Below, one piece after another: positions 2,723 to 48,265 of a stretch of 49,121 nucleotides of DNA (position 1 is the first letter of the stretch; every line of letters starts with the position of its first letter). The stretch spans positions 1 through 49,121 of the forward strand of contig CALXYN010000011.1 in NCBI GenBank assembly GCA_944392975.1, written 5' to 3'. A program made the position numbers and the translations under genes. Origin of the DNA: an uncultured Spirochaetaceae bacterium (GTDB lineage: Bacteria; Spirochaetota; Spirochaetia; Sphaerochaetales; Sphaerochaetaceae). Below the pieces are notes generated by a model, which searched no databases, was not told the origin of the DNA, and worked only from the letters and a program-made list of their open reading frames with translations.

Positions 2723-2731
2723 ATTCTATCA
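2723..2731 (-). promoter_or_regulatory. extended -10 of the NCS2 permease, leaderless arrangement
   Basis: Minus strand reads TGATAGAAT, then 6 nt, then the start codon at 2716. Transcription would begin at or next to the ATG. One of five genes here with identical spacing. Confidence 0.5.
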
Positions 2732-15770: not shown

Positions 15771-15781
15771 TGCTATAGAAT
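15771..15781 (+). promoter_or_regulatory. -10 region of butyrate kinase, leaderless arrangement
   Basis: TGCTATAGAAT; the TAGAAT ends 6 nt before the ATG at 15788 and there is no Shine-Dalgarno site. Confidence 0.5.
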
Positions 15782-30758: not shown

Positions 30759-30767
30759 TGGTATCAT
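30759..30767 (+). promoter_or_regulatory. extended -10 of the tolC-macAB operon, leaderless arrangement
   Basis: TGGTATCAT, then 6 nt, then the ATG at 30774. No Shine-Dalgarno site. Confidence 0.5.
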
Positions 30768-40337: not shown

Positions 40338-41711
40338 TCAATGTGCTGGGTTCAGGTCAATTTGCTTTTTCTTGTGACCTTCCCAGATAACATAAATAAG
40401 AGTATAGAATGCCATAATTCCGGAAACTGTAGGTGCGATTATTCCTAGTGCTCCGAGATCCGATCCGAAAATCCTGCTGAAAATCCAGACCATCGGAATT
40501 CTAAGTAACAAGGCTCCGAATGTACAGCTTATCATTGTCCACAGTGTTTTTTGCCTGCCGTTGAGGTATCCATTCAGAGTGAAAACGAGTGCTGTCATCA
40601 TATAGTCGTAGCTTGCGGTCCTGAAATATGGGATGCCAGCTTTTATTACATTCTCATCAGTTGTGAATGCTCCAATCATTGTCTCCGGAGAAAGCTGTGC
40701 CCATAACCAGAAAAGGAAAGAGACACCAAGAGCAAACGACAGGGCAAGCCATAGAGATGTCCTTGCTCTTCCTGCCTTGCCCCTTCCGATATTCTGCGCT
40801 GTTATTGCTGCAAGAGCATTTGCCATTGATGTCGCGCTGAGCATTGCAAAGACATCGTACTTCGCACCAATCCCGACTACTGCCGCTCCATATAGTCCTG
40901 CACTGTTCATCATCATTGTGAGGTAGAGAAATGAAATCCTGACAGCAAGTTCCTGGAATGATATTGGTCCCCCGACAGCTCCAAGTTTTCTTGCAATTGC
41001 TGCATCCGGGTGGAAGGAAGACAGTTTGAAATCAAATATGAAATCTTTCCTCTTCAAATAGATTACTGAGATAGCCATGCTCGCGGCCTGTGATATGACA
41101 GTTGCAAGCGCCACTCCGGCAACACCGAATCCCATCATTCCCGTAAGAAGATAATCCAGTGCTATGTTCAACACACATGCAACTGTTATGAAAATCAAAG
41201 GACGGGTAGAGTCTCCATAGCCACGGAGGATTGCAGATATGGCGTTATAAAGACAGATGAAGACATTTCCCAGTGTGCATATTGTGACATACATCATCGT
41301 CTCATCAAAGGATTCCTCAGGTGTTTTCAATACTCTGAGAATCGAGCTGTTAAAGATGAGCATCAAAGCTGTTATGATCAATGCCGTGATTGTGAATATT
41401 GTGAGTGTTGTCCCGATTGTCTTCCTTACTTTTTCATGATTCTTTTCCCCGACAAAAGAACCGATAAGAATAGTCGAGCCAAGAGTAAGCCCTGTCATAA
41501 GGCTGGTTACAATCTGTGTGACCTGTGTTCCTGTCGAGACTGCTGCAACAGCCCTTGCATCGCAGAACTGTCCAACCACAAAAAGATCTACTGCTCCATA
41601 TAGTGATTGAAGTATATTTGCAAGCAGAAAGGGGAGTGCAAACCTGAAAAGTGTTTTTACGACCGATCCCTCTGATAAATCCATTGCATTCATGCTTGGA
41701 TGTGACCACAT
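40338..41711 (-). CDS. MATE family multidrug exporter
   Basis: Third MATE gene. 457 residues in 12 membrane segments. The MDLSEGSVVKTLFRFALPFLLANILQSLYGAVDLFVVGQF opening and the ENVIKAGIPYFRTASYDY segment before helix 10 belong to the NorM/DinF-like branch common in gut anaerobes, which differs from the other three copies. The start is unsure: ATG 41711 follows a CATAGT box by 6 nt, like the leaderless genes, and later ATGs at 41693 and 41684 also lack a ribosome site. Substrate unknown. Confidence 0.88.
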   Translation of the reverse strand: MWSHPSMNAMDLSEGSVVKTLFRFALPFLLANILQSLYGAVDLFVVGQFCDARAVAAVSTGTQVTQIVTSLMTGLTLGSTILIGSFVGEKNHEKVRKTIGTTLTIFTITALIITALMLIFNSSILRVLKTPEESFDETMMYVTICTLGNVFICLYNAISAILRGYGDSTRPLIFITVACVLNIALDYLLTGMMGFGVAGVALATVISQAASMAISVIYLKRKDFIFDFKLSSFHPDAAIARKLGAVGGPISFQELAVRISFLYLTMMMNSAGLYGAAVVGIGAKYDVFAMLSATSMANALAAITAQNIGRGKAGRARTSLWLALSFALGVSFLFWLWAQLSPETMIGAFTTDENVIKAGIPYFRTASYDYMMTALVFTLNGYLNGRQKTLWTMISCTFGALLLRIPMVWIFSRIFGSDLGALGIIAPTVSGIMAFYTLIYVIWEGHKKKQIDLNPAH

Positions 41712-41841
41712 TGGGACACTATGGTCAATAATTTTGCTGCTCTGCTTATTTAATTTTATAAAAATATTCCAATTTCAGATTGAATTAATTTGTTTCTAAT
41801 TGTTATCCACATTCATTTAAAAGGGAGTATTCTGAAAAAGG

Positions 41842-43385: not shown

Positions 43386-43474
43386 TTGCATCATTGAATA
43401 ATTATTTATATTACCTGTAGATATATAATGTTAGTTTGACTTATATACTCTTTTTGGTAATTAATCGTTCTACG

Positions 43475-43483
43475 TGGTATAAT
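43475..43483 (+). promoter_or_regulatory. extended -10 of manA, leaderless arrangement
   Basis: TGGTATAAT with TTGGTA 18 nt upstream (43454-43459). It ends 6 nt before the ATG at 43490, so the mRNA should begin at the start codon. No Shine-Dalgarno site. Confidence 0.6.
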
Positions 43484-43489
43484 CGTGTC

Positions 43490-44656
43490 ATGGAAATAAA
43501 GAAAATAAAAGGCGTTGTTAAGGATTACGCATGGGGAAATAACGATTTTATTCCTTCCTTGATTGGAGGAGCCACAGGCGGCCCACAGGCAGAACTATGG
43601 CTTGGTTCGCACCCGTCAGGAGATGCGGAGGTTTCTGATAACGGACACCTGTCAGATTTCATTCGTGAGAATAAATCTGTTCTGGGAGAGAGAAGCTGGA
43701 ATAAATACAATGGCAGGCTTCCTCTTCTGATGAAGGTCCTTGCTATTGCAAAACCACTCTCACTGCAGTGCCATCCGAATAAATCACAGGCTGAGAAAGG
43801 CTGGGCAAGAGAGGCTGAGGCAAGAGCAAAAGGTGAGGCAGTATCTTATCAGGATGATAATGAGAAGTGTGAGATGATTCTTGCTCTTTCACCTATCACC
43901 GCACTGTGTGGATTCCGGGATATCGAGGTGATGAAGGCTGATCTTGCAGCTGTAGTCCCTTCGGCATTCGGCCGTGTCCTGAGATCTCTTTCAACGGATA
44001 TTGAGAATCTCTTCATGTCTCTTTTCTCGTTGCCCGGAGAGGAAAAGAAAGCTATTCTTGCAGAGTTGAAATCTTCTCTTGAATCTTCGTCTGAGCCATC
44101 ATGGGACGGACTTTTCCTGACAAGAAGCGGCATTTCCAGGGAATGTCTTGTTGAGTATCCTGATGATATCGGATGTCTTTTCCCGTTCCTGATGAATGTA
44201 GTTCACTTGCAGGTCGGGGAAGCTATGCCGATTACCCCAGGAACACTTCATGCATATGTTTTTGGAAACGGTATCGAGGTCATGAATGATTCTGATAATG
44301 TTCTCCGTGGCGGTCTAACTAAAAAAAGAATGGATTTGCCAGAGTTGAGAAGTATCATGAAATTCGCGCCGCTTTCAGTTGCGAAGTGTACTTCAAGTAA
44401 GGATGGCTTTGGCAGAACAGTATTTTCATCTCCGTCTCCAGCTTTCCGTCTGCTCTCTGTTTCCTCTGGAACATACGAAATCAAAGATGATCCTGTAGCT
44501 ATCATTCTTGTAACCGAAGGTTGTGTGCGCTTCTCTGCAAAAGGAGAGAGCCTGATGCTTGAAAAAGGGGAGGCAGCCGTAATTCCTTCTGGACTTGAGT
44601 ATACGATGTCTGTCAGAGGATCTGCATATATTTCAGAGGTCCCAGATGCTGAATAG
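43490..44656 (+). CDS. manA: mannose-6-phosphate isomerase, class I
   Basis: Zinc enzyme that interconverts mannose 6-phosphate and fructose 6-phosphate, for mannose use or for GDP-mannose supply. 388 residues. VKDYAWGNNDFIPSLIG and AELWLGSHPSGDAEV are family features; the zinc ligands are expected in LQCHPNK (Gln and His), the Glu of DDNEKCEM, where most relatives read DxNHKPEM, and the His of PGTLHAYVFG. The active-site stretch SDNVLRGGLTKKR is present. The ATG at 43490 is chosen because residues before it in the longer frame are not conserved and contain the promoter. Its end overlaps the next gene by 11 nt. Confidence 0.93.
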   Translation: MEIKKIKGVVKDYAWGNNDFIPSLIGGATGGPQAELWLGSHPSGDAEVSDNGHLSDFIRENKSVLGERSWNKYNGRLPLLMKVLAIAKPLSLQCHPNKSQAEKGWAREAEARAKGEAVSYQDDNEKCEMILALSPITALCGFRDIEVMKADLAAVVPSAFGRVLRSLSTDIENLFMSLFSLPGEEKKAILAELKSSLESSSEPSWDGLFLTRSGISRECLVEYPDDIGCLFPFLMNVVHLQVGEAMPITPGTLHAYVFGNGIEVMNDSDNVLRGGLTKKRMDLPELRSIMKFAPLSVAKCTSSKDGFGRTVFSSPSPAFRLLSVSSGTYEIKDDPVAIILVTEGCVRFSAKGESLMLEKGEAAVIPSGLEYTMSVRGSAYISEVPDAE

Positions 44657-48256: not shown

Positions 48257-48265
48257 ATTCTAGCA
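48257..48265 (-). promoter_or_regulatory. extended -10 of the eamA-PAP2 operon, leaderless arrangement
   Basis: Minus strand TGCTAGAAT, then 6 nt, then the ATG at 48250. Confidence 0.5.

Follow-up and report, generated by a model that had tools for sequence, protein, structure and literature searches.

Leaderless gene starts, in which transcription begins on the start codon itself, are an already known kind of bacterial gene start. In Deinococcus radiodurans, nearly a third of genes have a -10 motif 6-7 bp upstream, an arrangement proven with reporters (PMC12340547; PMC3160421). Among spirochaetes, leaderless genes have been predicted in six of 18 genomes, where they make up 1.8-6.9% of genes (Zheng 2011; PMC3160421). 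Sequencing of 5' ends in Leptospira interrogans places the start point directly on the start codon in 170-184 genes and within 10 nt of it in 430-450 genes (PMC5243855). The first-pass annotation of the DNA considered here called such mRNAs little described in spirochaetes, a statement that is only partly right given these predictions and maps. A literature search found no transcription-start study of Sphaerochaeta, Treponema or Brachyspira that treats leaderless mRNAs.

The window, a stretch of 49,121 nt, makes up contig 11 of a spirochaete assembly of 2.07 Mb (109 contigs, 95% complete), and among the spirochaetes sampled predicted leaderless starts are unusually common in its genome. The arrangement resembles that of Deinococcus-Thermus, where a TANNNT -10 box also sits about 6-7 bp upstream of the open reading frame with no Shine-Dalgarno (SD) site and an SD-led class coexists (PMC12340547; PMC3160421); the -35 spacing of 17 bp is consistent there too. 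The two differ in extent (about 30% of open reading frames there, about 11% here), in the box, which is most often TACACT there and an AT-rich extended TGnTATAAT here, and in the evidence, which comes from reporters there and from sequence alone here. L. interrogans is likewise a spirochaete with start points on start codons (PMC5243855), yet it belongs to a different branch of the phylum, its start points were mapped experimentally, and that study reported no sigma-70-like motif, whereas a clear motif is present here. The spirochaetes of Zheng 2011 share the same computational signature (PMC3160421) at lower frequency, although the percentages come from different estimators and are not strictly comparable; the lineage here is known mainly from gut metagenomes. 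What is added is the extent, anatomy, conservation and turnover of the leaderless class in one genus.

Table 1. Promoter boxes and starts in the window
Feature	Position	Strand	Details
manA extended -10 box TGGTATAAT	43475..43483	+	6-nt spacer 43484-43489, ATG 43490
manA coding sequence (mannose-6-phosphate isomerase type I)	43490..44656	+	start codon is the inferred transcription start
tolC-like gene extended -10 box TGGTATCAT	30759..30767	+	ATG 30774
buk -10 box TAGAAT	15776..15781	+	ATG 15788
NCS2 permease extended -10 box TGATAGAAT	2723..2731	-	ATG 2716
eamA extended -10 box TGCTAGAAT	48257..48265	-	ATG 48250
MATE transporter, probable promoter and start	41691..41728	-	TTGACC, 17 nt, TCACAT, 6 nt, ATG 41693

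Five genes in the window (manA, tolC, buk, NCS2 permease and eamA) had been singled out as carrying a -10 box exactly 6 nt before the ATG and no usable SD site. All five boxes lie where claimed (Table 1), and the absence of a usable SD site holds for each gene; the AAGGA of the NCS2 permease abuts the ATG with zero spacing and is therefore unusable. The buk box has TA in front, not TG. The manA product matches the Pfam family PMI_typeI_cat (2e-27). TGnTAnnnT at 6 nt precedes four of the 38 window genes, against about 0.12 expected by chance, an expectation derived from the 3.3 occurrences per 1054 genes at control spacings.

Those control spacings come from a scan that took in the window and a further 1.18 Mb from its genome, 1.23 Mb in all, in which a home-made, hexamer-based gene caller finds 1054 genes covering 89% of the scanned DNA. 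Spacing (k) is counted as the nucleotides between the end of the box and the start codon, and the other spacings from 0 to 30 serve as controls. The genome-wide enrichment at 6 nt anticipated by the first-pass annotation appears once the scan is limited to gene starts: ahead of an in-frame ATG, TGnTAnnnT occurs 37 times with a 6-nt and 16 times with a 7-nt spacer, while the other spacings have a mean of 3.3 and a maximum of 6 (Poisson P 3e-26 for the count at 6 nt). Plain TAnnnT behaves alike, with 119 cases at 6 nt and 54 at 7 nt versus a mean of 29.3, and TANNNT with its first T some 12 bp ahead of the start codon, the signal used by Zheng 2011, exceeds background. A pattern scan that ignores gene starts gives a far smaller excess (34 with a 6-nt spacer versus about 13 in the matching codon phase), and such raw scans are uninformative alone because of the high coding-phase background. 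A control with the reversed pattern (56 versus 7) is too lenient and overstates the enrichment. At GTG and TTG starts, k=6 counts stand close to expectation (8 versus 6.9 and 10 versus 10.6), with low power; SD-led GTG and TTG starts are also rare. The excess over background amounts to about 115 genes, so that about 11% of called genes are predicted to be leaderless, a percentage uncertain by a few points because the gene starts come from an approximate caller.

The spacing is not as constant as first described. The 6-nt spacer is dominant, and a 7-nt spacer forms a regular minority (the 16 TG-type and 54 TAnnnT cases above) in which transcription may start at -1 or +1. Very short leaders of 1-5 nt, with start points scattered around the ATG, might produce such a picture, and many leaders of 0-10 nt exist in Leptospira (PMC5243855). 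TGnTAnnnT is nevertheless unenriched on either side of the peak (0 at k=5 and 4 at k=8). Base -1 is a pyrimidine in 108 of 119 class members (91%), compared with 160 of 379 SD starts (42%), and in 92% of intergenic class members. A pyrimidine followed by A fits initiation on the A in both subclasses, and short scattered leaders are accordingly an improbable account.

Orthologs in the same genus keep the box and its 6-7 nt spacing although their flanks have changed. TAnnnT ends 6 or 7 nt before the ATG in 13 of 13 manA orthologs (56-89% identity) whose upstream DNA is otherwise largely unalike; the boxes are mostly TGnTATAAT or TGnTATACT. In named collections, manA orthologs belong to assemblies of uncultured spirochaetes, among them Candidatus Ornithospirochaeta stercoripullorum (79% identity). 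For the NCS2 permease, and with the window itself left out of the count here and below, the box stands at 6-7 nt in all eight orthologs at or above about 70% identity, while paralogs at about 28-30% identity mostly have SD sites and lack the box. Six of seven buk orthologs (69-79% identity) keep the box at 6-7 nt and the seventh has it at 8 nt; a further relative at 61% identity also retains the arrangement. The figure for eamA is six of ten orthologs. Neighbouring SD genes (36931, 38180, 41997 and 44646) show no box at 6-7 nt in the same relatives. The peak also replicates at non-focal genes in other species of the same genus, where 70 loci from relatives yield 13 TGnTAnnnT boxes at k=6 and six at k=7, with a mean of 0.7 at other spacings.

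The tolC box is kept in three of four close relatives (L106, L107 and L109). The fourth, L108, has a tolC-like ortholog with a strong SD site, AAGGAGG, and no box, which amounts to a switch of initiation mode inside one genus. Switching of this kind offers a natural comparison for how one mode becomes the other.

A second alternative is that the annotated ATGs are wrong and that ordinary promoters with normal leaders feed translation from a downstream codon with an SD site. The start codons are indeed predictions, and one in the window was probably misplaced, as described below. Strong SD sites, however, precede a later in-frame start within 90 nt in just two of 119 class members, compared with 61 of 767 ATG-started genes, and at the class ATGs themselves strong SD sites occur in three of 119 members and weak ones in five. 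Alignments of manA, buk and NCS2 orthologs mostly begin at the N-terminal residue 1 (for manA, in 13 orthologs), and misplaced starts would not produce a fixed spacing of 6-7 nt. Misannotation is thus very unlikely to explain the class.

The probably misplaced start belongs to the MATE transporter gene (window 40338-41728, minus strand), which had been put forward as a weaker sixth case with CATAGT ahead of ATG 41711. That start was dropped: CATAGT is absent in the orthologs, which instead conserve an aligned ATG 41693 and a -35 element TTGACC, with TTGAC 35-37 nt ahead of the aligned ATG in nine of nine. The true start is probably ATG 41693 and not 41711, and the gene is probably likewise leaderless from there, a case made less certain by its weak -10. 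A conserved TGTGgTTCAC-like stretch occupies the expected place of the -10 and is possibly an operator. Gene-start prediction that expects SD sites can misplace starts in such genomes, and the MATE gene is an example.

The anatomy of the class matches that of a sigma-70 promoter. The box preference initially proposed, TGnTAgAAT, is not upheld: the third box position is T in 48% and G in 21%, giving a consensus of TGnTATAAT. TTGACA-like hexamers (at least four of six matches) occur 30 times at 17 bp upstream of the -10 and 17 times at 18 bp, against 6.1 and 5.6 expected from decoy boxes. This enrichment is confined to 17 and 18 bp, within the 17 +/- 1 bp expected of a sigma-70 promoter. Aligned on the ATG, the class reads T64 T47 G39 (percent) at -35 to -33. 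Many members lack a recognisable -35 element.

The class also sits at the heads of transcription units, as expected of any promoter-borne start. Among 274 genes with an upstream neighbour on the opposite strand, TAnnnT is found 71 times at k=6 and 35 times at k=7 (control 8.7 per spacing), compared with 26 and 10 times among 553 genes no more than 60 nt from a same-strand neighbour (control 10.3). About 32% of these divergently oriented operon heads are predicted to be leaderless, while 78 of the 274 (28%) have a strong SD site. That the conserved element is an operator or an A/T-rich ribosome (S1) contact site, parts that a lone box beside a start codon could play, is the least credible alternative of all, given a sigma-70 extended -10 at exact spacing, TTGACA-like boxes specifically at 17-18 bp and the concentration at operon heads.

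Both genes carry the box in 27 of 137 divergent pairs, where 20 would be expected if the two were independent. The median gap in these pairs is 77 bp, compared with 180 bp where neither gene carries a box, and would suit a pair of core promoters, each about 38 bp long, placed back to back. In contigs C3, C7, C20 and C30 of assembly G000, gaps of such pairs cluster near 77 bp, five of them at 76-77 bp.

The promoter reading advanced by the first-pass annotation is therefore supported by the -35 element at 17-18 bp, the -1 pyrimidine, SD avoidance, ortholog conservation and same-genus replication. With high confidence, these elements can be taken as sigma-70 promoters whose start point would coincide with the A of the ATG, so that the mRNAs would be leaderless. 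They would be ordinary housekeeping-sigma promoters that run straight into the coding sequence, with a weak TTGACA at -35 and an extended -10 TGnTATAAT. This layout suggests where transcription begins and how ribosomes bind: RNA polymerase would initiate at that A, with a shift of no more than one base when the spacer is 7, and the mRNA would have neither a 5' leader nor an SD site. If the precedent of other bacteria holds, ribosomes would begin translation right on the 5'-terminal AUG, and later genes of the operon would be served by SD sites. The fixed spacing yields predicted transcription start points, and hence promoters, directly from the DNA of an uncultured lineage.

By inspection, no one pathway is prominent among strict members of the class. 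They include PdxA, NUDIX, aldo/keto reductase, class-V aminotransferase, M3 peptidase and beta-galactosidase genes, along with a histidine kinase, a LysE exporter, HIT, a PfkB kinase, an IS605-type TnpB-like protein and a CarD-like regulator. The gene for the CarD-like RNA-polymerase-binding regulator (L063:12645-13133, minus strand, contig 12) carries TGGTAGAAT, 6 nt and ATG. The IS605-type TnpB-like gene (L068:11692-12936, plus strand, contig 15) opens with TGGTATAAT, 6 nt and ATG.

Across spirochaetes, the class is uneven. Counts of TGnTATAAT-N6-ATG against a phase-matched N12 control are 43 versus 6 in the same genus, 109 versus 24 in family f9, 102 versus 21 in f3, 67 versus 26 in f65, 27 versus 14 in f5, 11 versus 7 in f68 and 6 versus 10 in f2. 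Gene-based spacing histograms from small samples of 200 kb show a clear peak in the window's own genome (23 at k=6 versus 4.6), a moderate one in the sister genus G204 (12 versus 4.0) and a weak one in G197 of family f3 (11 at k=6 and 12 at k=7 versus 5.6); no clear peak is seen in those of G019, G006, G101 and G034. The leaderless class is thus patchy and is strongest here among the genomes sampled by these histograms; family f9 and the same-genus genomes are covered by pattern counts plus individual loci. On balance, and with some reserve, leaderless initiation appears to be a major mode in this gut spirochaete genus near Candidatus Ornithospirochaeta, rivalling strong SD sites at clear operon heads (about 32% versus 28%). 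It would perhaps be confined to AUG and more widespread than in the other spirochaete lineages sampled, with genes that switch between SD-led and leaderless starts between species of one genus.

Genomes of family f5 are small; a sampled one has 29% GC and might, by inference, be Borrelia-like. Most members of f5 share a site resembling TGGTATAATCATnAT-ATG at around 280 kb (for example G076:C1:278449, G106:C1:279812 and G188:C1:279205), which suggests one conserved leaderless gene where the class overall lacks a clear peak.
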